From assembly GCF_007097395.1 (NCBI RefSeq), contig NZ_VKDC01000018.1, positions 1-64,000 of the forward strand: a DNA stretch of 64,000 nt. Direction: 5' to 3'. Every line of letters starts with the position of its first letter. Within the stretch, counting starts at the first letter, position 1. Both the position numbers and the translations under genes were made by a program. This document shows positions 18,247 to 43,900 of the stretch, one piece after another. This DNA is from Fulvivirga sp. M361 (GTDB lineage Bacteria; Bacteroidota; Bacteroidia; Cytophagales; Cyclobacteriaceae). The notes beneath the pieces are model-generated. The model made no database searches. It had not been told where the DNA came from and worked only from the letters and a program-made list of their open reading frames with translations.

Positions 18247-18315
18247 CGGATCAAAGTTGACCAAAATGTAATAGAGATATACTGGTTTCGTACCAGACCA
18301 AACAAAAGATAGATT

Positions 18316-26401: not shown

Positions 26402-28198
26402 TTAGAGCTGATTAAGCATCTCTACCAGATCGTCTTCATTGGTCAGCTCCAGCTTTTTTCGTAAGCGATACCGGCTCATATCCACACTTTTAGGGGATAT
26501 GCCCAGGATGGAAGATATCTCTTTAGAGCTTAGCTTCAATCGGAGCAATACCGCCAGTCTTTTTTCACTTCGGGTAAGGTCGGAATAGTTTTCTTCGAGT
26601 TTATTGTAAAAAGATTCATAGATGCTGCTCACATGGGCGTCAAACTCTTTCTGATCCCTGTTAATACTTTCATTTTCTTTGATCTTTTTCACCAACTCCT
26701 TCACTTTCACATCATCACTTAATCCATTTTTAGACCATTTTTCAATCTCCCGGGTTACGTCAGCTATGAACTCATTTCGTTCTACGATCTGAAGCGCAAA
26801 ATTCGTTAGCTCCCGGTTTTTAAAGGTTAGTTCCTTTTCTAAGAAGTCCTTTTGGATCTGTTCCGTTTTTAGCTTTTGAACGGTAAGTTCTTGTTTAGTT
26901 TTACTACGCTTTATGGAAAGCCCAAGGATCCAAATGGACAAAAGTAATATGATCGCTAAAACAATACCTATTATGTATTGCTGCTTGATCCGGGCTTTAT
27001 TGAGTTCATTTTTTTGTCTCAGCAACTCATTTTCTCGTTCTTTCTCTGCCGTATTAAACTTTAATTGAAGGTTTAGTATCTCATTCTGTTTGTTCTCATT
27101 GTAAACACTGTCATGATACTGTTTATGTTTTCTGAAATAGAATAAACTGTTTTTCAGATCTCCTGCTTTTTCATACGCATTGGAAAGTACCAGTGCAGCT
27201 GAATTTAACAGATTGTAGTTTTTCTCCTGCTCATTTATGGTGTAGGCTTCCTCTGCCAGTTGAATGCTTTCATTATATCGTCCCAGTTCTTTAACGGACC
27301 CTGCAATATTGATCATAGACAGGCTCATTTGATCTTTAAAGCCGTTTTTCATCTCAATATCGAATGCCTTTCTGTGATAGTATTCGCTTGAGTCATACCT
27401 CTGAAGATTGAAGTAAGCGTGCCCTACATTGTTGAATATGGTGGCCCTTCCATAAGCTGATTCAATAAGTTTTAAAGCTGCCTGATAGTATATTAATGCA
27501 CTGTCATACTTCATTTCTTCTATCAAAAGAAGGCCAATGTTATTATAATTTGATCCGATGTTAAAGGGTCTGTTTAACTCCTCATTCAGGTGCAGGGCTT
27601 TCCAATAAAACTCTTTTGCCTTTTCCAGGTTACCCAGGCGCTTGTAAATAATAGCTATGTTATTATAATTATTGGCCAGTGCCTTTTGATTCCCGAGCCG
27701 CTCGGCCAGTTTCTGTGATTTTAACGCATAACGAAGCGCTTTTTCAAAATCACCCAATTTTCGATACACTTCGCCGATCAAGGTGTACGCATTGGCAGCA
27801 CTGAAGCGCTCATTAACCGTTGGTATTCCATCCGGGGCTTCCGAATGGATACGCTCTTCTTCCAAAACAGCGAACTTTTCCAACTTAGCTACCGGCTCCA
27901 GAGCTTTTAGAAAGTCTCCTTTGAGGTAATAATTCCGGGTGTATTCCTGGTAGATTATGGGATCTAAAGAGTCTGTTTCATCCCTGATCTCGATCGCCTT
28001 ATCCAAATAATCAATAGCCTCATCAGGTAATTCCGTTCTGGAGAGACGTTTGGCAATCGTCAGAATAAGTTCTTTCCTTTCAAAAGAGGATAAATCAGTC
28101 TCCTGAAGTCTCGTTTTGAGGCTGTCGATAACGAGGGATTGACCAAATATGGGAGAACTGACGGCAAGATAAAAAAGCCAAAAAATGAATTTTTTCAT
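26402..28198 (-). CDS. TPR-repeat membrane protein with C-terminal LuxR-type HTH
   Basis: The start is placed at the ATG at 28198 (MKKFIFWLFYLAVSS...), which yields a clean signal peptide ending SSPIFGQ; an in-frame ATG at 28297 would add 33 non-signal-like residues. The ~598-residue product has about seven TPR units (residues ~60-360, for example ALANNYNNIAIIYKRLGNLEKAKEFY). One membrane helix (QYIIGIVLAIILLLSIWILGL) follows, then a coiled coil and a LuxR/GerE-like helix-turn-helix (LTRSEKRLAVLLRLKLSSKEISSILGISPKSVDMSRYRLRKKL). This architecture is common in Bacteroidota as a membrane-anchored regulator with periplasmic TPRs. It faces PUL 1 tail to tail. Its regulon is unknown. Confidence 0.85.
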   Translation of the reverse strand: MKKFIFWLFYLAVSSPIFGQSLVIDSLKTRLQETDLSSFERKELILTIAKRLSRTELPDEAIDYLDKAIEIRDETDSLDPIIYQEYTRNYYLKGDFLKALEPVAKLEKFAVLEEERIHSEAPDGIPTVNERFSAANAYTLIGEVYRKLGDFEKALRYALKSQKLAERLGNQKALANNYNNIAIIYKRLGNLEKAKEFYWKALHLNEELNRPFNIGSNYNNIGLLLIEEMKYDSALIYYQAALKLIESAYGRATIFNNVGHAYFNLQRYDSSEYYHRKAFDIEMKNGFKDQMSLSMINIAGSVKELGRYNESIQLAEEAYTINEQEKNYNLLNSAALVLSNAYEKAGDLKNSLFYFRKHKQYHDSVYNENKQNEILNLQLKFNTAEKERENELLRQKNELNKARIKQQYIIGIVLAIILLLSIWILGLSIKRSKTKQELTVQKLKTEQIQKDFLEKELTFKNRELTNFALQIVERNEFIADVTREIEKWSKNGLSDDVKVKELVKKIKENESINRDQKEFDAHVSSIYESFYNKLEENYSDLTRSEKRLAVLLRLKLSSKEISSILGISPKSVDMSRYRLRKKLELTNEDDLVEMLNQL

Positions 28199-28297
28199 TC
28201 TTTTTGTTTTGATCGTGTGGTTTCGTTCATGCCAACGGCATCCTTTCGTGGCATAGTTGATAAGCCGAATGTATAAAAACAATCCGTTACATTTCAA

Positions 28298-28689: not shown

Positions 28690-29397
28690 CTAGGCTGGAT
28701 TGTCATTCGACCATTCCCAACTCCAATCTTTGAAGTTCACCTTCTGCGACGGGATCGTTCCTGTTGCAGGGGGGTAAATGCTGATGGTCTCTGCCTGAAA
28801 CCGTGCATCTACCGTAGTACCGAATCCTGTTTTTGTTGTCTCAGAAAATATGTTTTGAGCGAAACTCGTGCCATCAAGTTTGAAGTAGGCTTCTTCATTT
28901 GGAATATCCAACTGAAATTCTGCCGTATGATAGTCGTTGTCCGGCTCCAAATCCTGTCCGAGAGACTGCCATCCGCTTCCATCCCAATAACGTAAAGCCT
29001 TGTAATCCGGGTCAAAGGGATTAATGATCCATTGGAAAGCCAGGCCATAATCTAACTCCGTAGTAGGGCCATCCCATACGAAGAGACCTCCTTCCACTGT
29101 CTGTCCATTGAAATCAGTATTGGAAGTGGCTATGGTATAGGGCACTTTAAATTCATAAGAAGCCACATGTGTATCGACCAGCGCATCGGGATCTGTTATC
29201 CTGTGAAAAGTGATATTGTGCGCCATGATGCGTCTGTTAAGAATATTGGCCTTAACGACCGACTCTGCCGTTTGATTGACCGTGCTAATGTCAGCCGAGT
29301 TCACCGCGGCTTCTCCGGGAGCATTGTAATTTCCATCACCAACATTGACAATCCAATTCGTTAAGTTGGTGCCGCTTTCAGATCTAGTTACAGGCAT
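28690..29397 (-). CDS. Hypothetical beta-rich protein
   Basis: 235 residues with no signal peptide, lipobox or membrane helix. I do not recognise the family. The composition (many Asp, Asn, Gly, Thr and aromatic residues) and segments such as GGLFVWDGPTTELDYGLAFQWIINPFDPDYKALRYWDGSGWQ suggest a concanavalin/LamG-like jelly roll, but no catalytic motif stands out. It is a single-gene unit between the PUL 1 regulator and the lanthipeptide island, with a hairpin terminator downstream and a decayed T9SS gene tail upstream. It may be an isolated beta-sandwich module left from a rearranged gene, or a genuine small intracellular protein. Confidence 0.6.
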   Translation of the reverse strand: MPVTRSESGTNLTNWIVNVGDGNYNAPGEAAVNSADISTVNQTAESVVKANILNRRIMAHNITFHRITDPDALVDTHVASYEFKVPYTIATSNTDFNGQTVEGGLFVWDGPTTELDYGLAFQWIINPFDPDYKALRYWDGSGWQSLGQDLEPDNDYHTAEFQLDIPNEEAYFKLDGTSFAQNIFSETTKTGFGTTVDARFQAETISIYPPATGTIPSQKVNFKDWSWEWSNDNPA

Positions 29398-29597
29398 GTT
29401 ATAATTATTTAGGTGAAAAGTTGATTCATAAATTAACTCAAATGAATTATAAATCCTACCTATTTAATAATCAATAGTTTATAACAATGATTTAAATGTA
29501 CACTTTATTGATTGGCCATGTTTATTTAAACCATTAAAGGGGCAGTTTATATAGAACATGCGAAGTACAACATAGATCTGGCTTTGCAAAAAAACAA

Positions 29598-29720
29598 GCA
29601 AAGGAAACCTCTGCCTGCTTAATTGCATACTGGAAAGTGAACACTATTGCTTTATTATCCTTTCAATTATTGTTTTGTTTTTTCCTGTTAGTTTAAAAAT
29701 ATAAACTCCCGGAACCAATG
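29598..29720. repeat. Left copy of the imperfect direct repeat flanking the lanthipeptide island
   Basis: The sequence matches 40790-40912 in the same orientation with roughly 80 percent identity by eye. It includes a 25-nt exact run (29598-29622 versus 40790-40814) that covers the hairpin beyond the T9SS stop codon. The matching part comprises the end of a T9SS sorting-domain coding sequence and its downstream hairpin. Confidence 0.75.
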
Positions 29721-29730
29721 ATTGAGTTTT
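29644..29730 (-). pseudogene. Remnant of a T9SS-secreted protein gene (last 28 codons)
   Basis: On the minus strand these bases encode SLVPGVYIFKLTGKNKTIIE then RIIKQ and a TAG stop. The PL6 protein at 40836 ends in the closely similar ALVPGVYIFKLVGKDKTLIE RIIKQ. In this frame TAA codons lie immediately upstream (29731-29733 and beyond), so only the tail of a type IX secretion sorting domain survives. The rest of the gene is gone. Confidence 0.8.
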
Positions 29731-29989
29731 TTAAGATTTTTAAAATTATCAGAGAATCAGCACATTGTTAAAGACTTAAATCCAGTCTATTTAGTTATTT
29801 TACAATTTGTAATTTAATAATTATGATAAATAGTTACATTAAACAGATAGTCTGAAGTGAATGCTGTATTTTTAAGATTATTCAAAAGTTTGACAATGCA
29901 AATCACCCCTAAAAATTACTCTTCAAAGACGGTATTCTTAACAAGCGATTTTTATAGGCTTTAGCAAAATTCTAAAATTTGTAAAGGTC

Positions 29990-32161
29990 ATGTTTAGAGC
30001 AAAATTCCCATTGGTAAGACAAAGCGAGTTGACTGACTGTGGACCAGCTTGTTTGGCTATGGTGTTGAAGTACTATGGCAAAAACGTTCCATTATCCAGG
30101 ATTAAGGATAGCACTTTTTTGTCCAGGGATGGAACCACCCTTCTGAATTTGAAAGAAACAGCTTATGAGTTCGGTTTGTCAGCTGACGGCTTTAAACTAT
30201 GCTTGGAAGATTTAAAAAATCAAAGGTTTTTACCGTGTATTGCACATTGGGATAACAACCACTTTGTGGTTGTATACAAATTTCATCAAGGGAAAATCTA
30301 TGTTGCTGATCCACGAGGTGGACGGGTAAAATACAACGAAAAGGATTTTTTGCATCACTGGGCTGACGAAAGGGATACAAATGGTTTAGTACTTCTATTA
30401 AGCACATCTGCTGAGTTCATAAAGAGTAGTGATAAACAGGACAGTTCAAGGGCTTTATTAAGCTACTTGAAAGAGTTTAAGCGGTATCTTTTGATACTTA
30501 CTATAGGCTTGATATTAGGTAGTATTATACAATTGATCTTTCCATTCTTGACTCAAGCGCTCGTTGATATTGGGATTAAAAAACAAGACTTAGGACTTAT
30601 TTACTTATTAGGTCTGGGCCAATTGCTATTGTTTATTGGGCAAATACTTGGAGAGGCGATTAGAAGATGGGTACTCATATTTATGAGCGCTCGTGTGAAT
30701 ATTACCATTATAAAGGAGTTTTTATCTAAATTGATGCGGTTACCTCTTAGCTATTTCGATTCAAAACTAGCGGGTGATATTCTCATGAGAATAGAGGATC
30801 ATGCGAGAATAGAAAGGTTCATTAGCACCTCCTCTCTAAATGTGTTATTCTCTGTTGTTAATTTACTCATTTTTAGCCTGGTACTTATTTCCTACAACAT
30901 TTTGATCTTTTGGATCTTTCTTATCATGAGTATTGGTTATGTCATTTATATCTGGCTTTTCTTAAAAAAGAGAAAGGAATTTGACATCCAAAAATTTGGG
31001 TTAAATGCCAAAAATCAGAGTGCTCTGATTCAAATAATTGTAGGCATGACCGAAATCAAGATGAACTCTGCTCAAGAAAGAAAAGAAAAAAAATGGGTAG
31101 AAAATCAAGAAGATATTGCGGATGTGAATATAGAAGGGAATAAGTATCGTCAATTTCAAGAGCTAGGAGGTGGTTTGATAAATCAGCTAAAAAATATTTT
31201 AATCACTTTTATTTCAGCAAGGGCAGTGGTTCAAGGTGATATGACATTGGGAATGATGATCTCTGTACAGTACATTATTGGTCAATTAAATGCCCCTCTT
31301 ACTTCATTATTGGCATTCTTTCAGGAGTTACAAGATGCAATGCTAAGTATATCCAGAATTGAAGAAGTTAAGAATATGCCTGATGAAGAATTTTCTGCAC
31401 AGATTGCTGAAATAGAACCTGAAGCATCAATTAGTGTAGAAAGTATCGATTTCCATTATGAAGGGCCTCATTCTCCAAAAGTGCTTTCAAACATTTCGGC
31501 TCATTTACCTTTTGCCAAAACGACCGCAATTGTGGGCACAAGCGGAAGTGGAAAAACAACTCTAATGAAGTTACTATTGAAATTTTATCAGCCAAATCAA
31601 GGTAGGTTAATGGTGGGAGCAGTGGATCTTGATGACATTTCCAGTAAATACTGGAGGGAACAGTGTGGAGTTGTAATGCAGGATGGATATATTTTTTCTG
31701 ACAGTATTAAGGGTAATATATGTTTGGCATCAGACATTGTGGATCAACAACGACTTGAATATGCCATGAAAATCTCTAATGCAAATGAGTTTATTGAACG
31801 TCTTCCCAAAAAAGAAATGACTATGGTAGGCATGGATGGTTCTGGCTTGAGCCAAGGACAGAAACAACGCATACTTATTGCAAGGGCAGTTTATAAGAAT
31901 CCGAAGTATTTTTTTCTGGATGAGGCGACATCCGCACTGGATACAAATAATGAGCGTATAATCTATAACAATCTACAGATGTTTTTCAAAAACAAAACGG
32001 TAGTCGTTATTGCCCATCGGCTCAGTACAGTTAAAAATGCAGACCATATACTAGTTCTTGAAAAAGGGCAGTTGGTAGAATCCGGGACACATACTCAGTT
32101 GGTCCAACAGAGTGGATATTATTTTAACCTGGTTAAAAACCAATTGGAACTTGTATCATAA
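29990..32161 (+). CDS. Peptidase-containing ABC exporter (C39 bacteriocin-processing) of lanthipeptide cluster
   Basis: A 723-residue PCAT-type exporter that removes double-glycine leaders and exports the product. The N-terminal C39 peptidase (1-~130) has catalytic Cys17 in TDCGPACLAM, His91 in DNNHFVVVYK and Asp107 in VADPRGG. The transmembrane domain spans ~160-445. The nucleotide-binding domain has Walker A GTSGSGKTT (516-524), LSQGQ signature (620-624), Walker B FFLDEA (641-646) and the H-loop IAHRLS. The precursor at 40391 has the matching Gly-Gly leader end. It is the first gene of a tightly packed operon (9-nt gap to the permease). A separate full-length HlyD-like adaptor, usual for such exporters in Gram-negatives, is absent from the cluster. 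Confidence 0.93.
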   Translation: MFRAKFPLVRQSELTDCGPACLAMVLKYYGKNVPLSRIKDSTFLSRDGTTLLNLKETAYEFGLSADGFKLCLEDLKNQRFLPCIAHWDNNHFVVVYKFHQGKIYVADPRGGRVKYNEKDFLHHWADERDTNGLVLLLSTSAEFIKSSDKQDSSRALLSYLKEFKRYLLILTIGLILGSIIQLIFPFLTQALVDIGIKKQDLGLIYLLGLGQLLLFIGQILGEAIRRWVLIFMSARVNITIIKEFLSKLMRLPLSYFDSKLAGDILMRIEDHARIERFISTSSLNVLFSVVNLLIFSLVLISYNILIFWIFLIMSIGYVIYIWLFLKKRKEFDIQKFGLNAKNQSALIQIIVGMTEIKMNSAQERKEKKWVENQEDIADVNIEGNKYRQFQELGGGLINQLKNILITFISARAVVQGDMTLGMMISVQYIIGQLNAPLTSLLAFFQELQDAMLSISRIEEVKNMPDEEFSAQIAEIEPEASISVESIDFHYEGPHSPKVLSNISAHLPFAKTTAIVGTSGSGKTTLMKLLLKFYQPNQGRLMVGAVDLDDISSKYWREQCGVVMQDGYIFSDSIKGNICLASDIVDQQRLEYAMKISNANEFIERLPKKEMTMVGMDGSGLSQGQKQRILIARAVYKNPKYFFLDEATSALDTNNERIIYNNLQMFFKNKTVVVIAHRLSTVKNADHILVLEKGQLVESGTHTQLVQQSGYYFNLVKNQLELVS

Positions 32162-32170
32162 CTTTAAGCA

Positions 32171-34558
32171 ATGTTCAGAAATTATTTTTATTCACTCATC
32201 AGATCGTATAGGAAAGACTACTCACTTAATATCCTGAGTATCGTTATGATGTCTTTAGCTTTGGGGACATCTTTCTTTAGCTACCAATATGGGGCCTATT
32301 TATCCAATTATGAGAGTCATAATAAAAATAGAGAAAATGTATTTCGATTGGTCAGAGCGGTGCATAAAAACGGTGAGATAGAACTGAGTAGCGCTTTTGT
32401 ATTTCCGAGAATCAAAACTGTCATAGAGGAAACTCTACCAGGTGTAAATAAAATAGGACGTATCTTTAAAAGGCAGGGGACCTTGTCTTATGATGACGTA
32501 CGATTTAATGAGTTCAATATTTACAATGCCGATGACGAAATTGTTGATTTGCTCGATCTTAAAATAGCGAGTGGCAATGTCAAGGAACCCTTGGTAGACC
32601 CGAATTCAGCAATAATATCACGCTCTTTGGCGGAGAAATACTTTCAAAAGGTTAGCCCAATAAGTAAAGTGATTAGACTCAATGATGAAGAGTATGTGGT
32701 TAAAGCTGTATTCCAGGATCTGCCCAAAAGTAGTCATATTAAGATTGATGCTCTCTTTTCATACAGCACTTTTAGCAACCTGAAGCATTTTAACACCAGT
32801 TGGTCTTGGAACAATGTATATTGTTATTTAAGTACAACAACACCTGATCTGATTGAAAGTCAAATCGAGCAAATTGTTAAAGAAAATGAAGAGGCAATCA
32901 ATAAAGGACTCATCATTCAAACCACTTTATTCCTTCAAAAGCTGGATGAAATCTTCTTATCTACTATCACTGATAATCTTCCGGACAAAATTGATAAACG
33001 CGTTCCATACTATTACATGATAATTTCTTTAATCGTTTTACTGGTTGCACTATTCAACCTTTTAAACATCAATGCCTCAAGGACCATCGGGAGGATGAAA
33101 GAGATAGGCATGAGAAAGATACTGGGTTCTTCTTCTTTTGGGATATGCAGTATCTTTTTTCTGGAAGCTGTTTTTTTTAGCTTGATCACCATTGCTCTGA
33201 CAATAGTTAGCTTTTATCTCTACGCTGACAACATATTAAATTGGCTGGATTTTGACGGGAGGTTGCAAGATATAGTCCATATCAACGGTATATTACAATT
33301 TACCGCCATCTATATTTTTGGAATAACAGTAACATGGCTTGTATCTAGCATTGCCTTTGTTAAAATTAAGTCGATAAGCGCTCTTCAAGGTGGAGATAAA
33401 AAGCTCTTTACGAATTATCAACTACGCAAGTACTTACTGGGTGGACAGGCCTTTCTTGTATTATTAGTTGTTCAAATACTCCTGGTAGTTTATTTACAAT
33501 ATCGTTTTGTGATTCAAGGTGATGCCCAAATTTCTACTAAGAATTATTTAATACTTGAGCCGCCAAATGTTACTTCAGATTCTTATTTGAATGATATTGA
33601 CATCTTCAAGAATCATCTCAAATCTTATTCCGGTGTTGATAATATTAGCATAGCATCGAGCATACCCGGAGAACGAATAGTTGATTATTTTCAGAATAAG
33701 GTTAAACTAGATAAAGAAGATCAATTCAGTCCCGAATTGTTTTACTTTATTTTAATTGATGATGAATTCTTTGAGACTTTTAATTTGAAGCTTGTAAGCG
33801 GTAGAAACTTTGACTACTCAATAGCGGCAGATGAAGGAAATGTCATTATTAATGAAGCAGCAGCTGTCCGTCTTGGTTTTGAGAAGGAAGAAGACGCGTT
33901 AGACGAATTGATAACCACCCCATATGGAACTCATAGGGTGATAGGAATAGTCAGAAATTATCATCATGAATCCTCAAAGAGTAACATTGAGCCTGTTTTA
34001 TTTATGTTGGACATAGATTTTTGGGGATATTTTGTGATAAAACCAAAAGGACTTTTGAATAAAGACCTCATTGATTACATAAAAATAAAATGGAAGGAAC
34101 TGGCGCCTGAAAGTGCATTTTCCTATTTCTACTTTGATGAATTTTATCGTAAGCAATACCACACCGAAGAAAGATTCATCACAATACTATTTATTTTGGC
34201 AGTAGTCATCTTGGTGATTTCCCTTGGAGGGCTAATTGGTATGACTACTCACACATTAAGTAAAAAAATGAAAGAGATGGCAGTGCGTGTTACGTTGGGG
34301 GCAGTGTTTACCGACCTCCTTTACAACCTCTTAAAAGAATACTTGAACATCGTAGTGTCGGCGACTGTGTTAGGAACGCTTGTCAGTTACTACCTGCTGG
34401 ACAGATGGCTACAAAAATTTGCTGATGCTATCAACCATATTTTGTTTCCTATGACGATTGCTGGTAGCCTGATCTTGTGTTTCATTGTTTTTGTTTTTTG
34501 GATAATACTCTTCGCGATCAGGCATCGTATTACTGATACACTTAAAAATGAAATGTGA
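32171..34558 (+). CDS. FtsX/MacB-type ABC permease in lanthipeptide cluster
   Basis: 795 residues with an N-terminal membrane helix (~20-40), a MacB-like periplasmic core and two FtsX-like membrane modules. The first is MIISLIVLLVALFNLLNINASR followed by RMKEIGMRKILGSS, the second FILAVVILVISLGGLIGMTT followed by KMKEMAVRVTLGA. Such permeases normally work with a MacB-type ATPase to expel or sense antimicrobials; no such ATPase gene occurs in this window. In this cluster it may provide self-protection, or use an ATPase encoded elsewhere. It overlaps the next gene by 11 nt. Confidence 0.85.
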   Translation: MFRNYFYSLIRSYRKDYSLNILSIVMMSLALGTSFFSYQYGAYLSNYESHNKNRENVFRLVRAVHKNGEIELSSAFVFPRIKTVIEETLPGVNKIGRIFKRQGTLSYDDVRFNEFNIYNADDEIVDLLDLKIASGNVKEPLVDPNSAIISRSLAEKYFQKVSPISKVIRLNDEEYVVKAVFQDLPKSSHIKIDALFSYSTFSNLKHFNTSWSWNNVYCYLSTTTPDLIESQIEQIVKENEEAINKGLIIQTTLFLQKLDEIFLSTITDNLPDKIDKRVPYYYMIISLIVLLVALFNLLNINASRTIGRMKEIGMRKILGSSSFGICSIFFLEAVFFSLITIALTIVSFYLYADNILNWLDFDGRLQDIVHINGILQFTAIYIFGITVTWLVSSIAFVKIKSISALQGGDKKLFTNYQLRKYLLGGQAFLVLLVVQILLVVYLQYRFVIQGDAQISTKNYLILEPPNVTSDSYLNDIDIFKNHLKSYSGVDNISIASSIPGERIVDYFQNKVKLDKEDQFSPELFYFILIDDEFFETFNLKLVSGRNFDYSIAADEGNVIINEAAAVRLGFEKEEDALDELITTPYGTHRVIGIVRNYHHESSKSNIEPVLFMLDIDFWGYFVIKPKGLLNKDLIDYIKIKWKELAPESAFSYFYFDEFYRKQYHTEERFITILFILAVVILVISLGGLIGMTTHTLSKKMKEMAVRVTLGAVFTDLLYNLLKEYLNIVVSATVLGTLVSYYLLDRWLQKFADAINHILFPMTIAGSLILCFIVFVFWIILFAIRHRITDTLKNEM

Positions 34559-35774
34559 TATGAGTTGGGAGCCTATTCTGCCTTTTGATGTGACATTTTT
34601 AGAAAGAGAAATTTCGACAGTTGACCTTGCTCTGGCTCATTCTCAAGATCACTCATTATTTGATGGAAAATCGGGTTTGATCCTTTTAAATTACTATGCG
34701 TATAAATCTAGTCAAAATGATAATTATATGCTTAGAGTCGAGCAGTTGTTGGAAGAGAGCATTGACGATTTTGAGGATAACAGGTATCCATTGAATTTTT
34801 ATGCAGGCATTATAGGACTGGGCTGGTGCATCAATTGCCTTATTAAAGAGGATTGCAAAACTTTTAGTTTTTTAGAAGAATGGACAAAAAATATTGATGA
34901 GGTATGCCATTTGTTGATACAACAAAAAATTAATGAGTTGCCCTTGGATATTCACTATGGATTGCTTGGAATAGGGTTATATCTTCTTGAAAAAAGGGTT
35001 GTTCCGAAGTTGCTGCTTGAGTCAATCGTGCTGAAAATTAAGGAACGGTCAATCTTGACCGCATCAGGTGTTACCTGGCCTGATTATGTAGGTATGAAGA
35101 ATCGTAATACCTCTGAGCTGGAATATTCGCTTGGTTTTCATTACGGTGTATGTGGGATTTTAAGCTTTCTTTATAGATGTCATCAAGCCGATATAAAACC
35201 TGAGGTATGTAAAGAGCTGATCCTCTCGAGTTGTGGATGGATGTTTAGGCTCAAATCCGATTTTAATTTTACAAACACTTTTTATCCGGAAGAAATTAAT
35301 AAGGATGGGATATATATACCATCTTCTCGGCTATGGAGTTCCAGTGAGTTGTCAATCATGATTATTTTTCTTTTAAGTGGTCTGAAGTTTGATCAAAAAG
35401 AGCTGGAGATCCAATCATCAAAAATTTTGGAACGATCCGCGTTGCAACATAGCTTGTCAGTGATGAGGGATCACGACGGCCCGCTGCATAATCAAGGTTT
35501 ACTTTATGGTTACTCTGGGGCATTATTATCGTACAACTACTTTTATCAGCAGACAAAAGTCCCTCTGGCGAAAGAATTGGCTTTAAGTTGTTACAATGCC
35601 TTGATCAAATTAATTCAGGAAAAAAATTATTTTGATCCTTATGCCAGAAAATGGATCAGGGATCATTCATTGGCCAACGGCTCAATAGGAATTTATCTAA
35701 CCATTCTTTCAGGTATGTCCAAAACGCCTCCTTGTTGGATTCAAGGCTTTCATCTACCGCTGGAAATTGTTTAA
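34548..35774 (+). CDS. LanC-like protein lacking zinc ligands (pseudo-cyclase)
   Basis: 408 residues with the LanC alpha/alpha-barrel pattern of repeated G-x-x-G segments (FYAGIIGLGWCI, IHYGLLGIGLYL, GYSGALLSYN, NGSIGIYLTIL). Compared with the next gene, the zinc site is gone. The Trp-Cys-Tyr-Gly motif is Trp-Ser-Ser-Ser (263-266), the Cys-His-Gly motif is Leu-Tyr-Gly (319-321), and at the His-Gly position the sequence is His-Tyr-Gly (198-200), with Tyr at the ligand position. Cyclisation by LanC enzymes needs these ligands to activate Cys thiols, so this one is probably not catalytic in the usual way. It may act as a partner or scaffold for the intact LanC or for LanB. It overlaps the permease by 11 nt and the next gene by 1 nt. 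Confidence 0.82.
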   Translation: MKCDMSWEPILPFDVTFLEREISTVDLALAHSQDHSLFDGKSGLILLNYYAYKSSQNDNYMLRVEQLLEESIDDFEDNRYPLNFYAGIIGLGWCINCLIKEDCKTFSFLEEWTKNIDEVCHLLIQQKINELPLDIHYGLLGIGLYLLEKRVVPKLLLESIVLKIKERSILTASGVTWPDYVGMKNRNTSELEYSLGFHYGVCGILSFLYRCHQADIKPEVCKELILSSCGWMFRLKSDFNFTNTFYPEEINKDGIYIPSSRLWSSSELSIMIIFLLSGLKFDQKELEIQSSKILERSALQHSLSVMRDHDGPLHNQGLLYGYSGALLSYNYFYQQTKVPLAKELALSCYNALIKLIQEKNYFDPYARKWIRDHSLANGSIGIYLTILSGMSKTPPCWIQGFHLPLEIV

Positions 35775-36967
35775 TGGAAAATATAGACATTTATCTAAAG
35801 AGTTTAGCAGAAAACCTTAAAGGTTTTAAGGATCATTCCCTTATTAATGGAAGCGGCGGTGCAATTTTATATTTGATTTATTACGGAAGGGCAACTAATC
35901 AGCAGAAATATCTTGCAAGAGCAATAGAGCTTTTGCAGCAAGCCATAGAACACTTTGCTCATAATAACAAAAGCAAGTCAACTTTCGGGTACGGTTTTAT
36001 TGGAGTGGCCTGGCTCACTCAATTCTTAAATAATGAAGGCATTTTATCGAGAGGCGATATTTCATTTTTGGACGAAATAGATGAAGTTATATTTGAGAGT
36101 CTCATTGCTGCCAACGAAGAACAGAACTATGATCTATTTGCAGGATCCATTGGTTGCGCCTTATACTTTGTAGAAAGAAAGAACGCAATGACAACACTAG
36201 CCTTGAATGAATTCATTGGAGGGCTTGAAATGATTCACCAAAAAGATGAATTTGGTATAAAGTGGCCTGACTTTTTCAAACCAATTGATACTGACATACC
36301 TGAATACAACCTGGGAATGGCCCATGGGTCGCCAAGTATTGTCAGTTTTCTTTGTTCCGCTTTTGAATACATCGAAAATAAGGAAAAGGTGATAGTCCTA
36401 ATTCAAAAAACTATATCCTGGATCAGGCATTATAAACAAGATGTCAGCTTTGGTTCATATTACCCAAGTATTATTAGCGACAGAATAACACTCCCTCAAA
36501 AAAGTGCACTAAGCTGGTGTTATGGAGATTTAGGGATCGCATTTTCATTCATCAAAGCCGGGGAATTATTAAATGATAACTCACTGATCGAAGAGGCCTA
36601 TGAACTCGTTCTTAATGCAGCTACAAGAGATATGAAAGATTCTCTGATTTTTCATTCAAAAGAATATCATGAAGCCTGCTTTTGCCATGGTTCAGCCGGT
36701 AATTCATATATGTTTATGAAGCTATTTAGCTATTTCAAAGATAAAAAAATTCAGACGGCTCAGCATTACTGGTTCAAGCAGTTCTCTGAACTAAGACTTA
36801 AGATGTCCAATAGGTTTTCATTTTATTCCTATAACGAACAGGACGAGTTAGAATGGAATGATGACCTGACAATTCTTGAGGGTATTTCAGGGATTGGTTT
36901 AGTCCTTTTGGCAAAATTACATGTCAATTGCCAGAACTGGGATAAAGTGTTTCTCTTAGATATATGA
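35774..36967 (+). CDS. lanC: LanC-type lanthionine synthetase (cyclase), zinc site intact
   Basis: The start is placed at ATG 35774, which overlaps the previous stop as TAATG; longer in-frame starts would lie inside the upstream gene. The 397-residue product has all three zinc-site motifs: His184 in MAHGSPS, Cys249 in SWCYGDLGI, and Cys304-His305 in CFCHGSAGN. It would catalyse Michael-type addition of precursor Cys thiols to dehydroalanine and dehydrobutyrine to form (methyl)lanthionine rings. It is translationally coupled to lanB (4-nt ATGA overlap). Naming follows family function; the specific product is not known. Confidence 0.9.
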   Translation: MENIDIYLKSLAENLKGFKDHSLINGSGGAILYLIYYGRATNQQKYLARAIELLQQAIEHFAHNNKSKSTFGYGFIGVAWLTQFLNNEGILSRGDISFLDEIDEVIFESLIAANEEQNYDLFAGSIGCALYFVERKNAMTTLALNEFIGGLEMIHQKDEFGIKWPDFFKPIDTDIPEYNLGMAHGSPSIVSFLCSAFEYIENKEKVIVLIQKTISWIRHYKQDVSFGSYYPSIISDRITLPQKSALSWCYGDLGIAFSFIKAGELLNDNSLIEEAYELVLNAATRDMKDSLIFHSKEYHEACFCHGSAGNSYMFMKLFSYFKDKKIQTAQHYWFKQFSELRLKMSNRFSFYSYNEQDELEWNDDLTILEGISGIGLVLLAKLHVNCQNWDKVFLLDI

Positions 36968-39900
36968 ATGACGCAAAGTTAATACCTTCAGAGAAAGTTT
37001 TTTTGAGAACTCCACTGGTTGAGTCATCTGTCCTGAAAAAGCTACATAATTTATCAATTGATATCATTTTAGACTTTATTAAGAATGATAGTCTGATTTT
37101 GGAATCGATATTCATCGCTAACCCCTTACTCCACAAACGCATCACAGATCTTAAGCAAAATGATAAGGTTGATGAGCTTTTCAAAACCACTTTATTGAAG
37201 TACCTGATAAGAATGGCTTACAGAGCCACTCCTTATGGTCTTTTCGGAGGTGTATCGGAATTAGAAGTGACTACTTGTACAGAAATTATTTTATCTAGTC
37301 CGAAGGACTGGCTGAGACAAGTACGCCTCGATATGCACGTGCTCTGTGCAATAATTGATAAGTACAAATATTCAAATGATACTCTTTACTTTCCAAATAA
37401 TACAATTTATGATACAGGAAAAACACTGAGATATGTGGAGTACCAGGAAAAAAAAGTGTATAGAGAATACATGCTGGCGTCGATAGAAAAAGATGAATAC
37501 ATTGAGCTCATACTGGATCAGGCATCGACAGGTAAAACTCTTGCAGGTCTGGTGAAAACTATAGTTGATACTGGAATTGAAGAAAGTACCGCCTACGAGT
37601 ATATTAAAAGTACTATTGATAGTAAAATATTGATTAGCAATTTGGAACCCAGTGTGATTACAAATGCTACGTTTAGTAAATTGAAATCAGCTATTCCCGA
37701 CTACAAAAAAATTAAAGAACTTTTAAATCAAATAGGTGTTGAAAGTAACGCGAATGTAGAGCGATACAAAGAAATACAAGATAAATTACGTGTACTTAAT
37801 GTAGAATTTGATGAAAACAATTTCATTCAGCTCGATTTATACAAACCTCTGATCAAAGGTGAAATTGATAAAAAACGGATCGGAGAGCTATCCGAAGCAA
37901 TCATTTTCTTATCAAAAATTAATAATCCTAGATTGTATGACTCAAAGGATTTAAATCGATTTAAGAAAAAATTTGTAGAAAAGTATGATGAGCAGGAGGT
38001 GCCATTACTTGAGGTCTTAGATCCAGACTATGGTATAGGCTTTCCTATTGATAAACCAAGAATTAAAGATGATAATATTTTCCTTACCCATTTAAACTAT
38101 GCAAGCAACACGAGGAGTGAGAATAAATCAGTAGATTATGTTCTTAATGACACTATTTTTAAACGACTTCAAGAAAAACTGATTGATACACTCCAAAACA
38201 ATGAATACGAAATTGTATTTACTGATTATGACCTTGAATCAGACGCGAATTCACCAACTTTTCCAAGTTCGCTGTACTCCCTCTGTACGTTGGTGGAGCT
38301 TGACGGAAGTGATACCTTACTTCATGATATAACAACCGGACCCTCAGCTTCACAATTGATAGCCAGGTTTGGATTTATGACAGAATCTCTTTCACAATTT
38401 TGTAATCAGGTCCAAAAATACGATCAGCAGTCCACAGAATTTGTCATAGCAGAAATAAATCACTTAGTGAACAACAGAATTGGAAATATTCTCATCCACT
38501 CCAACCATGATGGGTATGAAATCCCCATTGTAAGTCCTGGTTTTTTTCATGATAAGGTCATTCCTCTATCTGATTTGATGGTATCGGTCAATGACGACAG
38601 GGTTTTTTTGAGAAGTAAAAACTTAAAAAAGTTTGTTGAGCCACGATTGACCACCGCGCACAATTTTACGGAATACACTACACCACATTATCATTTCCTG
38701 TGTGCACTTCAATTCCAGGCAAACCTTATTGAATTAGGTTGGAATTGGGGAACTTTTGTAAGTTTTCCGGTTTTGCCACGTGTAAAATTTAAAAAGGTCG
38801 TACTAAGTGCGGCCAGATGGAATTTCACGGATTTATGTATAGGTTTTACAGATTGGGAAGACAAGTTCAACCAGTTTAGTATCAAGTATAAATTACCTGA
38901 GGAAATAGTAGTTGCAAATAGTGATACGAAATTACTCGTAAACCGTAGCTTACAGGTCGCATCAATAATTTTGTTTAAAGAATACAAACGAAATAACTAC
39001 CTCATAATGGAAGAACACTTCCCGGAATCTAACCTTATAAAAGATTCTGCCGGAAGGGTGTATAGGAATGAGCTAATAGTACCCTTTTTTACCAAAGTCA
39101 AAAATGAAATACCTTTTCGGCCTGCAAATAAAAAGGTGGAGAAGAGGATTACTAGAACGTTCAATCCCGGAGTAGAGTGGCTGTTTTATAAAATTTATTG
39201 TTCTGAGATCTCAAGTAATCAGTTACTTGTTAAAGTAATCGAACCTTTGATTAGAAGATTAACGGATGAAAACAGCATTGAGAAATGGTTTTTTATTAGG
39301 TATGCTGACCCTCAATATCACTTACGATTGAGGCTAAAGTATACTCATAATCATAGAGAAAAGGCGATGAACACCTTTAATTCCTTCATGGCAGACTCCC
39401 AAGTGCACCGTCTGGTGAGCAATGTTTCGATCCATTCTTATTCCCGGGAGTTAGAAAGGTATGGTAATGAAATTACAGAATCAGAGTCGCTATTTTCAAT
39501 TGACAGTCATTATGTTCTTAACATATTAACTGAAGTACATAAATATGAAGACAGTCAGGACTTGTTCAAAATAATTTCAATTATGATTGCAATTGATCAT
39601 TTGTTAACTAATACGGGATTCGATACGACGACATACAAGATAGAATTCTGTAAGCAAGCGAAAGATGAAATGATAAGAGATCTTGATATTAATAGACAAA
39701 GTTTTAATAAATCGAGTTCTAAACTCTTCCGGAAAAATTTTCACAATAAAACTTTAGAATCTCTAACGAATGATTTGCCAGCAGATATTCGCTTAATTTT
39801 GGAAGAACGAATACATAGTATAGATCTGCTTTTCCTTAATAAACATGATTTCCAAGTCGAGTTTAAAAATATTATTGGAAGTCATATCCACATGTCAATA

Positions 39901-40008
39901 AATAGAATGTTCAAAGTCCACCAACCGTTAATTGAATTGGCTATTTATGACTATCTCTTTCAGCTATACAGATACGAAATAAAAAGGAATGCAAAGCTTA
40001 AAAAATAA
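36964..40008 (+). CDS. lanB: Full-length LanB lantibiotic dehydratase (class I)
   Basis: A 1014-residue tRNA-Glu-dependent dehydratase with both domains fused. The N-terminal glutamylation domain (~1-690) includes FLRTPLVESSVL and the typical LIRMAYRATPYGLFGGVSE. The C-terminal SpaB_C-like elimination domain (~720-1005) includes WLFYKIYCS and EKWFFIRYADPQYHLRLRLKY. It glutamylates Ser/Thr in the precursor core and eliminates glutamate to give dehydro-amino acids. Length matches one-piece LanB proteins rather than split dehydratases. The gene is AT-rich compared with the PULs (one hand-counted row, 37681-37740, has 16 G/C of 60). It overlaps the next small gene by 20 nt. Confidence 0.93.
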   Translation: MNDAKLIPSEKVFLRTPLVESSVLKKLHNLSIDIILDFIKNDSLILESIFIANPLLHKRITDLKQNDKVDELFKTTLLKYLIRMAYRATPYGLFGGVSELEVTTCTEIILSSPKDWLRQVRLDMHVLCAIIDKYKYSNDTLYFPNNTIYDTGKTLRYVEYQEKKVYREYMLASIEKDEYIELILDQASTGKTLAGLVKTIVDTGIEESTAYEYIKSTIDSKILISNLEPSVITNATFSKLKSAIPDYKKIKELLNQIGVESNANVERYKEIQDKLRVLNVEFDENNFIQLDLYKPLIKGEIDKKRIGELSEAIIFLSKINNPRLYDSKDLNRFKKKFVEKYDEQEVPLLEVLDPDYGIGFPIDKPRIKDDNIFLTHLNYASNTRSENKSVDYVLNDTIFKRLQEKLIDTLQNNEYEIVFTDYDLESDANSPTFPSSLYSLCTLVELDGSDTLLHDITTGPSASQLIARFGFMTESLSQFCNQVQKYDQQSTEFVIAEINHLVNNRIGNILIHSNHDGYEIPIVSPGFFHDKVIPLSDLMVSVNDDRVFLRSKNLKKFVEPRLTTAHNFTEYTTPHYHFLCALQFQANLIELGWNWGTFVSFPVLPRVKFKKVVLSAARWNFTDLCIGFTDWEDKFNQFSIKYKLPEEIVVANSDTKLLVNRSLQVASIILFKEYKRNNYLIMEEHFPESNLIKDSAGRVYRNELIVPFFTKVKNEIPFRPANKKVEKRITRTFNPGVEWLFYKIYCSEISSNQLLVKVIEPLIRRLTDENSIEKWFFIRYADPQYHLRLRLKYTHNHREKAMNTFNSFMADSQVHRLVSNVSIHSYSRELERYGNEITESESLFSIDSHYVLNILTEVHKYEDSQDLFKIISIMIAIDHLLTNTGFDTTTYKIEFCKQAKDEMIRDLDINRQSFNKSSSKLFRKNFHNKTLESLTNDLPADIRLILEERIHSIDLLFLNKHDFQVEFKNIIGSHIHMSINRMFKVHQPLIELAIYDYLFQLYRYEIKRNAKLKK

Positions 40009-40357
40009 AGAGTCGATTTCATTTAAATGGGTTTATGCTACATACAGTGCCGTATTATTGATTATAGTAATTTTTTTCATTGGATTAAAGCATATTTACT
40101 TCTATGAAGAAATTGATTGTAAGGTCAAAATGAATAGTACAGGATATGTTTCTATAGAAACGGATGAATATTTAATGGAAAACATGATCCTCTCTTTAAA
40201 GGATATGGAAAGTCAGTTGGAATTCAATGTCAAAGAAAAGAAAGGAGATAATTACCTTTTGGTTAATAAAAGCGGCATTTTGATTTCGGCAGATAGGAGT
40301 TACTCCTGTTTTGTTAAAAGATCGCTTCTGGAATGGTTAAAAACAGTAATAGAATGA
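39989..40357 (+). CDS. Small single-pass membrane protein ending the lanthipeptide operon
   Basis: 122 residues: a short cytoplasmic N-terminus, one membrane helix (YATYSAVLLIIVIFFIGL), then about 85 extracytoplasmic residues (KVKMNSTGYVSIETDEYLMENMILS...). I do not recognise a family. Position and topology suggest an exporter accessory, perhaps a much-reduced HlyD-like adaptor (membrane anchor plus a short beta-rich piece), or an immunity protein. Both are inference. It starts inside lanB (20-nt overlap), so it is part of the operon, and ends 34 nt from the convergent precursor gene. Confidence 0.7.
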   Translation: MQSLKNKESISFKWVYATYSAVLLIIVIFFIGLKHIYFYEEIDCKVKMNSTGYVSIETDEYLMENMILSLKDMESQLEFNVKEKKGDNYLLVNKSGILISADRSYSCFVKRSLLEWLKTVIE

Positions 40358-40360
40358 ATA

Positions 40361-40381
40361 GAGGGAGGAATCACCTCCCTC
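40361..40381. terminator. Bidirectional hairpin between operon end and precursor gene
   Basis: GAGGGAGG (40361-40368) pairs perfectly with CCTCCCTC (40374-40381) around a 5-nt loop, placed exactly between the two convergent stop codons. There is no long T-run on either side, so its strength as an intrinsic terminator is uncertain. Position and symmetry fit a shared terminator or transcript-stabilising hairpin. Confidence 0.7.
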
Positions 40382-40390
40382 AATGAGTTA

Positions 40391-40585
40391 CTAATCACTG
40401 TCATCATCACTATCACAAGGGGAGCAAGCACAACAAGTAGGTCTGTTGTTAGAACACCTTGAGGTCTTTGTTCTACCTGTTGAATCATCGGAGTCATTAC
40501 CTCCACGTGTGGCGAACATTTGAGATTTAGTCAAATTCGTAATAGTTGACTTCCTTAAACTTAATTTTTTACTTAAGTCTTTCAT
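40391..40585 (-). CDS. lanA: Class I lanthipeptide precursor peptide
   Basis: 64 residues. The 29-residue leader (KKLSLRKSTITNLTKSQMFA then TRGG) fits the Bacteroidota lanthipeptide/GG-leader pattern L-x-L-x-K-x-T-I-x-x-L-x-x-x-x-M ending in Gly-Gly, the site for the C39 exporter. The 35-residue core has five Cys (core positions 15, 22, 23, 25, 28) clustered in SRCSNNRPTCCACSPC, and nine Ser/Thr before the last Cys, so up to five (methyl)lanthionine rings are possible. Both core ends are Asp-rich (NDSDD and DSDDDSD). The gene is convergent to the biosynthetic operon and has its own upstream region with a TAAATTTG -7-like element. Modification and product are predicted, not shown. Confidence 0.88.
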   Translation of the reverse strand: MKDLSKKLSLRKSTITNLTKSQMFATRGGNDSDDSTGRTKTSRCSNNRPTCCACSPCDSDDDSD

Positions 40586-40632
40586 AATGATTTATTTAGG
40601 GGTTAAGCGTTTTTTGTATAAATAAATATATA

Positions 40633-40640
40633 CAAATTTA
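40633..40640 (-). promoter_or_regulatory. Candidate -7 element of the precursor gene
   Basis: On the minus strand TAAATTTG matches the Bacteroidota -7 consensus TAnnTTTG perfectly, 47 nt upstream of the precursor ATG. No clear -33 TTG was found at the expected distance. Separate transcription would allow precursor levels to exceed those of the modifying enzymes. Confidence 0.5.
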
Positions 40641-40788
40641 TATAAATTGACACTATTAAAGTGCTGTAAGTTTGCTGAAATTGGAAATTCATAAATAAGA
40701 CCTATGCCTGCATGTAGGTCTACTAAAGAGCAGATGAACTATTTCAACAATAGGCAATAGAACTATGCAGATCCAACCTCAATTAACA

Positions 40789-40807
40789 GGCAAAGGAAAC
40801 CTCTGCC
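40789..40807 (-). terminator. Hairpin after the PL6 gene
   Basis: GGCAAAGG (40789-40796), AAA, CCTCTGCC (40800-40807) forms an 8-bp stem with one mismatch, starting 29 nt after the PL6 stop on the minus strand. It lacks a strong T-run. The same hairpin sequence (with its outermost pair lost) is found at 29597-29615 beyond the T9SS remnant. Confidence 0.5.
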
Positions 40808-40912
40808 TGCTTAACTACATACCAAAAAACGAACGCTATTGCTTTATAATTCTTTCAATGAGGGTTTTATCTTTTCCTACCAGTTTGAAAATATAAACTC
40901 CGGGAACCAACG
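40790..40912. repeat. Right copy of the imperfect direct repeat flanking the lanthipeptide island
   Basis: It corresponds to 29598-29720 in the same orientation and comprises the last ~25 codons of the PL6 T9SS tail plus the hairpin downstream. The copies start 11,192 bp apart and enclose the whole lanthipeptide cluster. Confidence 0.75.
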
Positions 40913-43900
40913 CTGACAGTTCAACTTCGTATGCTGAATCATTGAGCGGCTGATCCATTACAGACCTTCCTGTCTGATCAAAAACCAGGACGGATTGATA
41001 ATTATCTGCATTTCTTATACTCACACTGCCATTGGCAGGATTAGGATAAAAATACACGGTCTTAAGACTTGCTAATTCTTCTGTATGGGAGAGGGGTGGT
41101 TCAAGTGCTGTTATCGTAACATCAGGGGGAGAAGTAGAAACATATCCAAATATTCGTAGTTCATCCAGGCTAATCCATGGTCCGCTATATCCACTCGCCC
41201 CGGTGACCGTAATTCTCACATACCTGGCGTTAACGTCTGCAAAAGTATCTGATATGGGTGAGTTGTTAGACCCATTGGTAGTATTATTACTTCTGTCTAC
41301 GATCTGAGTATATGGACCGGCGGAACTGGTGGCTGATTCAATACTATATTGATACGCCCTGTCATTGTAGCATATTAATGCTGCACTGCTTATGATATGA
41401 TCTGCTCCAAGATCAACCACTAAAGACTGTGGGAACCCTGATGCTGACCAGCGTGAATCAACATCTCCATCCACCACATTGGAACCGGGATGGGTAGATT
41501 GCTCGCTTGATGGACTCACAGGCTTATTCAAAGCAACATTCGTGGCATCAGGGGTTGTTGTGGTTACAGTAATAGAACTTATATCCGTAAAACCACCGTC
41601 AGTGGTCGTAACAGTCACCGTAGCTGACCCTGCGCTTTGAGCAGTTACCAGGCCATTGGAACTCACGGTTGCCACGGAAGTGTTGTTGCTACTGTAGTTT
41701 ACCGTTTGATCAGTCGCATTGGACGGACTAATGGCCGCCGTGAGTTGCTGTGTTTCGCCAACCGCTAATGAGACATTAACCGGTGATAATGACACTCCTG
41801 TTACGGCAATGGTGGTCTGGTCTGATTCACCAAATACCCTGAATTCATTCAGGCTCACCCAACTGCCGGAGTAATCGGAAGCCCCTGATACTGTAATACG
41901 AATGTAACGGGCATTAACAGGTGAAAAAGTATCTATTATTGGGCTGGTGGCCGTTCCTTGTGTGGTGTTGGCACTTCTATCCACGATCTGAGTGTAAGTT
42001 CCGCCTGAAGTAGTGGCAGCTTCAACAACATACTGATAGGCGCGGTCATTATAACAAACCAATTCGGTCCTTTCTACATTAAATAGTGCTCCAAGATCGA
42101 CTACGGCAGATTTGGGAAAACCTGACGATGACCAACGCGTAGCCGTAGCCCCATCGATTAAATTTGCAGGAACATTATCGGCATCAGCAGTCCCTGTAGC
42201 CGTTATTGTCTTATTTAAGGCGAGGTTGGTGCCCGATGACGGAGCTGTGACCGTGATGATACTGCTATCCGTAAATCCACCGTCGGCGGTGGTGACAGTG
42301 AGCGTGGCTGACCCTACACTCTGGGCAGTGACGAGGCCACTTGAACTTACAGTGGCTATGGATGTATTGTTGCTGCTGAAGCTTACACTTTGATCAGTCG
42401 CATTTGATGGACTAACCGTGGATATAAGTTGTTGTGTTCCACCCGGCGCTAATGAAATATTTGCTGGTAATAATGATACATCGGTTACCGCTACAGGAGC
42501 GATGAATCTTGCCTGAGTTACCGTAACGGTTCTCGTTAAGGAACCTCCTGTGACAGTTACTACGCCTGACCTGTCTGTACCACTGCTGTTGGCCGTCACA
42601 GTGACCATAACACTGCCGTTATCAGACCCGGAGGTGGGACTAACACTTATCCACGATTGATCATTCGTCACCGACCAACTTACGTTGGACGATATCGTGA
42701 TCGTTTTGCTCCCGGAGAATGACGTGAAATCACTTAAAGGTGAAACTGATAGAACCACGGAAGAACCTATCGCACAGATGCTTAACGTGCCACCGGTAGC
42801 ATCTAAGAAACATGCTCCTACCTCTGTGCCTACCTGGCTGTTTGTAAATGGTGAAAACACCACACTTCCGCTTCCCCCGGAAACCTCATGTGCACCGATG
42901 TCCATGTCACTATTGGGGCGTGAGCGACCTTCAATATCAAAGTTTACAGTGGCGCTGTAATCACTGCCCGCGGCATTGGCCGCAGGCCCGGAACTGCTGG
43001 GTTTAAAGATCTCTCCACTTGCTGAGAAGTTAGCATTTGCATTAGTTATTCCGGAAGAAGAAATACCGATAGCGGAACCCCCTGCGATATTCCCCACATA
43101 CTGCATTCCCTGTCCGGTCCCTGAAATATCACCTGTAACAATGTCAGACCGTGTGGTGTAAATTGCATTGTAAGCTAACACGCCTCTGGGGTCATAACTG
43201 GATCGGTCATTATAGTATATCGGTGATTCAGAATTGTAAATGGTGTTGAAAGCCACTACTATGTCGTCTACCCTTTGATAGCCATTGGATGTCCCTCCGG
43301 ATGCTGCTGAGCCACCGACGAGGGTAATGGGATTATTCCACTTATCGCCAGTGCTGATAACGTCTTGGATATAGTTATTGGTAATGACATGGAAGCTATC
43401 CGATATACGTATGCCTCCTGTTCCTTCAACATTCTCTCCCAGGAAGAAATTACCGTCTATTGTGGCACCGGCGCCATGTCGTAATACCAGGGAACCACGA
43501 CATCTGCGAAAGGTATTGTTTCGGTATATGTTATTGGCGCTTTTGTTGGTTATAATCTCATTTTCTCCATCCGCTTTGAAGAAGTAATTTCCTTCCACCG
43601 TGACACTGGCACTTTTATCCTGGAACTCGCTGGTTCCCACACGTATCGTTTCACTGTCACCGGCATGTGTTGTCCCGGAAACTCTTTTTATGAAATTGTA
43701 GAAATAATTGTTCCTGATCTGATGCCCGACAGGGTTGAAGTCATTGTATTCCAGTTCCACTAAAACCAAAGCCCCCGGGCTGTTTTTATTCAGAAAGGAA
43801 CAGTTTTCCACCACGTTGTTAGTACCGTATAGTACAATCCAACGGTGTTTATCCGTTCCGCTGGGTGTTAGGTTGTTAAACGCGCAATTTCTGATCGTAG

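Follow-up and report, generated by a model that had tools for sequence, protein, structure and literature searches.

A class I lanthipeptide cluster, probably acquired, in Fulvivirga sp. M361, with a predicted zinc-less LanC paralogue beside a zinc-complete cyclase

We analyzed a 64,000-nt window of DNA from Fulvivirga sp. M361 (contig NZ_VKDC01000018.1, positions 1-64,000, from the 8.13-Mb assembly GCF_007097395.1), in which positions 29990-40585 hold six plus-strand genes with short gaps or overlaps—for a C39-peptidase ABC exporter, an FtsX permease, two LanC-like proteins (LanC1 and LanC2), the dehydratase LanB, and a small membrane protein—together with a convergent minus-strand gene, lanA, for a precursor peptide. 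Judged by its sequence, this island belongs to a kind of class I lanthipeptide cluster known from Bacteroidota and has a core peptide of its own. We hold with considerable confidence that it is a probably acquired cluster in which LanB would dehydrate the precursor, LanC2 would cyclize it, and the C39 exporter would cleave and export it, with LanC1 assisting. An earlier, sequence-only reading had located the same seven genes and proposed that they make a ribosomal lanthipeptide. The gene calls held up, with all but the small membrane protein scoring above curated Pfam or NCBIfam profile cut-offs, and the proposal is backed by four agreeing lines of evidence: the leader family, the catalytic residues of LanB, one LanC with a complete zinc site, and the C39 exporter motifs.

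The lanA gene (40391..40585, minus strand) encodes 64 aa, comprising a 29-aa leader that ends in Gly-Gly and a 35-aa core, NDSDDSTGRTKTSRCSNNRPTCCACSPCDSDDDSD. The core contains 7 Ser, 4 Thr, 5 Cys, and 8 Asp, in agreement with the Ser/Thr/Cys-rich peptide described earlier (11 Ser/Thr in all). Every core Cys has at least six Ser/Thr on its N-terminal side, and Asp plus Glu make up a share of 0.23, compared to 0 to 0.16 in a hand-picked set of 15 related cores. Its calculated monoisotopic mass is 3727.38 Da when unmodified, 3637.33 Da after five water losses, and 3529.26 Da after eleven. The leader includes LSLRKSTITNL, fitting the pattern LxLxKx5L, which, followed by Gly-Gly, has been described in several class I precursors of Bacteroidetes (PMC7268733). 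It is also the only match over cut-off in the genome to the class I lanthipeptide model NF038153 (34.9 bits vs. a cut-off of 22), a model matched over cut-off in 9 of 395 sampled genomes of the phylum, this one included; no match to the pinensin leader model NF038180 was found at E values up to 1. All features of the Gly-Gly (GG)-leader subgroup of the Bacteroidota group L1a (NF038153) are thus present, namely a leader over cut-off, LxLxKx5L, Gly-Gly, and a C39 exporter.

We then compared the precursor with related loci, which were chosen by likeness to the window LanB, except for L096-L115, chosen by likeness to LanC1. When the whole precursor was searched against the open reading frames (ORFs) of 135 fetched loci, 20 weak matches were obtained (E 5e-6 to 9e-4), all beginning in the leader and most extending into the core. 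The sequence-only reading had said that absence of the precursor from related clusters would refute it, and this is not what was found: GG/GA-type leaders resembling that of lanA were seen in 12 of the 32 related LanB loci among those scanned for motifs, which were read by eye with evident chance frames discarded. Six of these leaders were scored with NF038153, of which four exceeded the cut-off and two fell just under it (21.3 and 20.9).

LanB (36964..40008, plus strand; Lant_dehydr_N 343 bits, Lant_dehydr_C 181.5 bits) is a full-length dehydratase with both glutamylation and elimination domains. Its best solved relative is MadB (9g04; E 1.6e-52), to which it aligns over most of its length. 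By this alignment, LanB has all nine residues listed for MadB as essential for glutamylation and elimination (R83, R87, T89, D123, D291, R468, R790, R832, and H976; PMC12241602), so that the domains and catalytic residues expected of a class I enzyme are both in place. LanB was found in 23 of 194 related genomes, counting its own, and within the genus in 1 of 14 other genomes.

The two LanC-like proteins differ at the active site. In LanC2 (35774..36967, plus strand; LANC_like 143.6 bits, cut-off 23.2), the stretches WCYG and FCHG cover, in the alignment, the zinc-ligand positions named for MadC (8byk; PMC9889658), and Cys, Cys, and His are all present. In LanC1 (34548..35774, plus strand; LANC_like 87.9 bits, same cut-off), the same columns hold Ser, Leu, and Tyr, a loss that the earlier reading missed. 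Its active-site His is also replaced by Tyr (column 199), although 40 of the 42 aligned LanCs keep the His. The separate LanC with a Cys-Cys-His zinc site that characterizes class I is therefore supplied by LanC2 and not by LanC1. LanC1 nevertheless retains 11 of 14 conserved columns, including Asp134 (those lost being 199, 266, and 267), and its 408-aa ORF is unbroken and overlaps the neighboring genes at both ends. A structure model of LanC1 (predicted local distance difference test [pLDDT] 86.4, predicted template modelling score [pTM] 0.90) gave its highest Protein Data Bank (PDB) TM-scores with MadC (TMq 0.78) and NisC (0.77), followed by human LanCL proteins. Since the model matches MadC and NisC while the zinc ligands are gone, LanC1 seems to have a genuine LanC fold that lacks the metal site. 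For both proteins, LANC_like was the only family over a Pfam cut-off, with no kinase or lyase domain such as would mark the class III/IV fusions LanKC and LanL.

The exporter (29990..32161, plus strand; Peptidase_C39 120.6 bits, with ABC_membrane and ABC_tran) carries what we take to be the Cys, His, and Asp stretches of a C39 peptidase as well as Walker A, signature, and Walker B motifs. It is followed by an FtsX/MacB-type permease without an ATPase domain (32171..34558, plus strand; MacB_PCD 69 bits, FtsX 59.3 bits), which scores 101.5 bits with the model of DarB, a darobactin-associated permease, under the cut-off of 700. Similar permeases occur in 2 of 80 related loci (L169 and L219) and in 0 of 35 in another fetched set. 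The small membrane protein (39989..40357, plus strand; 122 aa, one N-terminal helix) belongs to no Pfam or NCBIfam family, has no convincing homologue in 194 genomes, and found no usable relative in the fetched related loci. Its low-confidence model (pLDDT 62) consists of an N-terminal membrane helix and a strand-rich part, and matched no PDB fold at E 0.001 or better with Foldseek. The strand order of this model raised the idea of a miniature HlyD adaptor, which was rejected (hhalign probability 0.4% over 27 columns; nothing with Foldseek).

Dehydration by LanB, ring closure by LanC, and cleavage plus export by C39 exporters are established for these families. In the present island, LanB would bind the lanA leader, glutamylate core Ser/Thr using Glu-tRNA, and eliminate glutamate to leave dehydro residues. 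LanC2 would then add Cys thiols to form (methyl)lanthionine rings within CSNNRPTCCACSPC, flanked by acidic arms. The earlier reading spoke of up to five rings; since the core has five Cys, five is permitted, but as an upper bound only. The C39 exporter would cleave behind Gly-Gly and then export the peptide. LanC1 would most likely act as a helper rather than as a standard zinc cyclase, holding the leader or intermediates or steering ring closure with LanB and LanC2, while the permease and the small membrane protein would probably contribute to export or self-protection. We infer all of this chemistry, the parts played by LanC1, the permease, and the small protein, and any bioactivity.

To place the LanC pair in context, we counted LanC genes in related LanB loci, considering only ORFs of at least 250 aa; contig ends may conceal LanC or exporter genes in the fetched stretches. 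In a set of 49 LanB loci, window included, 26 had one zinc-complete LanC, 10 had none in the fetched stretch, and 7 had one zinc-less LanC; the others had one of each (two loci, the window and L108), two complete (two loci), two zinc-less (one locus), or one incomplete (one locus). A C39 exporter like that of the window (at least 500 bits) was present in 18 of the 49. An initial contig search with LanB as the single query gave no relatives, which came with a 20-row LanB alignment; 80 of the 576 loci from that search were kept and, with the window, form a set of 81 that partly overlaps the first (some genomes are common to both). Here, 39 loci had one complete LanC and 32 had none; a single zinc-less LanC was present in 4, and one of each kind in another 4 (the window, L183, L187, and L218). 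Of the remaining two loci, one had an incomplete LanC and the other had two complete ones. The complete and zinc-less genes lie apart on opposite strands in L108 and L218, and adjacent same-strand pairs with the zinc-broken gene first occur in the window, L187, and L183. In L187 (Emticicia aquatilis), the pair lies at 4416-5627 and then 5665-6873, and the cluster around it also contains four precursor-like ORFs with GG leaders; in L183 (a Hymenobacter metagenome-assembled genome), it lies on the minus strand at 17544-18794 and then 16327-17547. The first LanC of both loci keeps the first Cys, with Cys-His replaced by Leu-Tyr (L187) or Ile-Tyr (L183), so their zinc sites are broken but not wholly gone.

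Trees of the LanC proteins were built without the zinc-site columns, and rows of up to 330 aa and the distant rows of L038, L039, L040, L042, L044, L056, and L057 were excluded. We used a quick tree of 91 rows and a careful tree of 38 rows hand-picked from these, the rows left out including the long ones of L108 and L210. Seven LanCs that are zinc-less and carry Tyr in the His column (from L068, L112 [second gene], L157, L159, L183, L187, and L220) form a clade, hereafter Y-type, with a bootstrap of 100 and a Shimodaira-Hasegawa-like approximate likelihood ratio test (SH-aLRT) value of 99 in the 38-row tree and an SH-aLRT of 99 in the 91-row tree. LanC1 falls outside it in both trees, weakly placed near LanC2 on a long branch (SH-aLRT 77.9 for the pair in the quick tree). 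Another Tyr-bearing zinc-less LanC (L112, 8824-9957) also lies outside the clade. When LanC1 was forced into the Y-type clade, a group named after seeing the tree, the approximately unbiased test did not reject the constraint (p-AU 0.904) and the log-likelihood was higher by 48, a fit at least as good; the window pair may therefore belong to this clade or represent a parallel case. Bootstrap support (200 trees) for a single group of all zinc-less rows was 0% in the 38-row tree, and the zinc-less label required 7 changes on the 91-row tree, compared to a shuffled mean of 14. As a separate observation, L112 (8824-17342) is a class I cluster in which two LanCs without a zinc site flank LanB and an exporter; it adjoins four NF038153 precursors, each containing four Cys.

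Zinc-motif-less LanC-like proteins without LanB are known from Bacteroidales, and the authors of that work doubt a lanthipeptide role for them (PMC10352776). No description of a class I system with two LanCs or with a zinc-less one turned up among the papers listed, judged by title and the beginning of the abstract, with few subscription papers in reach. We tentatively suggest that some Bacteroidota class I clusters may use a two-protein cyclase, in which a zinc LanC works with a zinc-less partner encoded directly before it that steers ring formation or catalyzes part of it; we put this forward as a minority possibility. Such partners are found in the well-supported Y-type clade and possibly arose anew in the island of the Fulvivirga lineage.

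Several observations weigh against the lanthipeptide reading as we state it. The core alone found no relative better than E 0.18 among the ORFs of the 135 loci, so its modification is not checkable by conservation. LanC2 has Ala at the position of MadC Arg294, four residues before the first zinc Cys; since MadC and many relatives have Arg there, reduced LanC2 activity is possible. The island contains no HlyD adaptor, whereas a HlyD-like gene lies beside the C39 exporter in seven other loci (two of them in the same genome, with one HlyD confirmed by Pfam); elsewhere in the genome there are 17 HlyD_3 matches. Finally, because so many LanB loci show no LanC ORF in the fetched stretch (the 10 of 49 and 32 of 81 above), LanB alone is no proof of ring formation. 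This last point, and the match of the C-terminal part of LanB to the thiopeptide-type model TIGR03891, would fit a product that is dehydrated or otherwise modified without a full ring set, LanB then working as its counterparts do in thiopeptide-like or glutamylating systems. We regard this as very unlikely, given that TIGR03891 appears also to span LanB elimination domains (the MadB entry is similarly named), that each of the five Cys has Ser/Thr upstream, and that LanC2 is zinc-complete. Less likely still is that the 64-aa ORF is not the substrate at all. It does lie on the opposite strand, and its core lacks a relative in the fetched loci, but its leader matches its family over cut-off, the whole precursor matches small ORFs of other LanB/LanC loci, and a hairpin lies between its stop and that of the operon. 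Convergent precursors likewise lie directly beyond the 3' end of LanB in L045 and L060, and the precursor of a pinensin-type cluster in the same genome (L038, below) converges on its operon stop to stop, so the layout is a recurring one.

For LanC1 we favor a helper role, and two other explanations deserve weight. One, which we consider doubtful though worth keeping in view, is that LanC1 is a functionless, decaying duplicate of LanC2: it lacks four active-site residues and lies near LanC2 in the trees, weakly supported and on a long branch. Decay is harder to reconcile with the intact 408-aa frame overlapping both neighbors, with 11 of 14 conserved columns kept, and with the similar pair layout in L183 and L187. 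The other, which we think unlikely, is that LanC1 is an active metal-independent cyclase like class III LanKC, sharing in ring formation or making another cross-link such as labionin. An active LanC1 is conceivable because a class III LanC fold without zinc ligands still acts in cyclization: ThurKC has Ser, Phe, and Asp at these places (PMC10604976), compared to Ser, Leu, and Tyr in LanC1. Its ORF is unbroken within an operon of tightly overlapping genes, its model shows a full LanC, and the 7 loci of the 49-locus set with a single zinc-less LanC have no other in the fetched stretch. However, four of those seven (L042, L044, L056, and L057) are distant, low-scoring 360-aa proteins; LanC1 has also lost the active-site His at column 199 and contains no kinase or lyase family; and zinc-complete LanC2 is at hand.

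The flanks bear on the origin of the cluster. The GC content of 29719-40784 is 0.353, compared to 0.444 in the remaining window and to 0.432 in the lowest of the same-length window stretches lying clear of it (200-nt steps). This block is bracketed by a 126-nt direct repeat whose two copies are 83% identical and of which no third copy was found in the assembly; neither the low GC nor the repeat figured in the sequence-only reading. The right copy (40785..40910, minus strand) comprises the last codons of an intact chondroitinase-B-like gene (40836-44351, minus strand; Chondroitinas_B 224.8 bits, Por_Secre_tail 36 bits) plus DNA beyond it. The left copy (29593..29718, minus strand) is what remains, in frame, of the displaced end of a Por_Secre_tail (type IX secretion) gene, 3' part and downstream DNA: in the minus-strand frame, it keeps the last 24 tail codons and then the same stop as the right copy. 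Because a displaced gene end across a GC-poor block fits insertion at the 3' end of a gene or recombination between related tail ends, the repeat is probably a scar of the acquisition of the island. Alternatively, the flank could have originated by loss of most of a duplicated neighbor gene. No integrase was found among the genes identified inside the island. The neighbor gene was searched in 15 genomes of the genus, its own included, and elsewhere gave only partial matches of at most 49% identity, which is why there is no empty site for comparison.

Further features of the region concern gene boundaries and signals. The listed overlap of LanC1 and LanC2 is 124 nt, but the LanC1 stop shares a nucleotide with an ATG at 35774 (TAATG), so LanC2 probably starts there rather than at 35651; the tight plus-strand operon described earlier stands, and the long overlap is probably an effect of the ORF caller. 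The convergent stop codons of the operon and lanA are separated by 33 nt containing a perfect 8-pair hairpin (40361..40381), which is a probable terminator common to both; the surrounding 71 nt fold at -22.9 kcal/mol (z -4.61), with 0 of 200 shuffles equally stable, although terminator-like sites across the region are at chance level (6 found vs. 6.2 expected). Upstream of lanA, TAAATTTG (40633..40640, minus strand) matches TANNTTTG, the consensus of the Bacteroidota -7 promoter element, and is a weak candidate for such an element. Matches to this consensus number 53 in the window, compared to 59 expected by chance, and neither sigma-70-type nor Bacteroidota-type promoter patterns are more frequent than chance would give, be it in the region or in the whole window. 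A 235-aa ORF adjoining the left repeat copy on its outer side (28690-29397, minus strand) matches no family over cut-off and may be part of a gene for a secreted protein. Also outside the repeats, 26402-28297 (minus strand) encodes a tetratricopeptide repeat protein with a C-terminal LuxR-type DNA-binding region, with nothing linking it to control of the island.

The genome holds other loci of related kinds. The pinensin-type cluster L038 (contig C70, 2200-11264) has an NF038180 precursor (47.4 bits), a split LanB, a 630-aa LanC-like protein, HlyD, and a C39 exporter. L039 (contig C63) encodes at 8581-9660 a LanC-like protein with no clear zinc site; next to it are two small ORFs of GG type, one at 9905, which matches TIGR04149 below cut-off, and one at 12897. 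L040 (contig C114) likewise encodes at 3928-4977 a LanC-like protein with no clear zinc site, adjoining a C39 exporter, a HlyD-like ORF, and, read by eye, two sulfotransferase-like ORFs. L039 and L040 are possible further loci for ribosomally synthesized and post-translationally modified peptides.

GG-leader class I lanthipeptides with C39 exporters were described in Bacteroidota in 2020 (Walker et al.; PMC7268733), and two Bacteroidota class I peptides have been produced in E. coli, with seven dehydrations and three rings (PMC9993889), so the novelty of the cluster is less than the sequence-only reading implied. With the NF038153 group, the island shares the leader motif, GG site, C39 exporter, LanB, and LanC; it differs in its core, the zinc-less LanC beside a zinc LanC, the FtsX permease, and the missing HlyD. 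Chryseobacterium ChmABC and Runella limosa RuiABC (PMC9993889) have a Bacteroidota LanA, LanB, and LanC in common with it, but their products have three rings, whereas the island core offers five Cys. A Runella limosa LanB locus in our set (L160), a relative at 28% identity, is a candidate for the published cluster and has one LanC, which is zinc-complete. Pedobacter lusitanus PedA15 (Bothwell et al. 2021), likened here by description only, belongs, according to a review (PMC12328550), to the Bacteroidota class I lanthipeptides whose leader is removed by a GG protease. Pinensin-type clusters also combine a GG leader with a C39 exporter in Bacteroidota, but the one in this genome differs by its split LanB, 630-aa LanC-like protein, and HlyD, and the window precursor does not match NF038180. 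Class III LanKC, represented by ThurKC (PMC10604976), shares with LanC1 a LanC fold without zinc ligands, whereas LanC1 stands as a separate protein and has a zinc-complete LanC next to it in a class I cluster.

The peptide would join a known family in a phylum with few characterized lanthipeptides, bringing to it an acidic core with clustered Cys. For specialists, the main interest lies in a zinc-less LanC kept alongside a complete one and in what is probably a scar of acquisition. GC-poor and set between repeats, the island hints at how such clusters enter genomes, with a gene for a secreted protein on one side and a similar gene end, copied and displaced, on the other. The pairing of a zinc-less with a zinc-complete cyclase would offer a natural test of what the LanC toroid does beyond zinc chemistry, a question so far posed mainly by class III enzymes.

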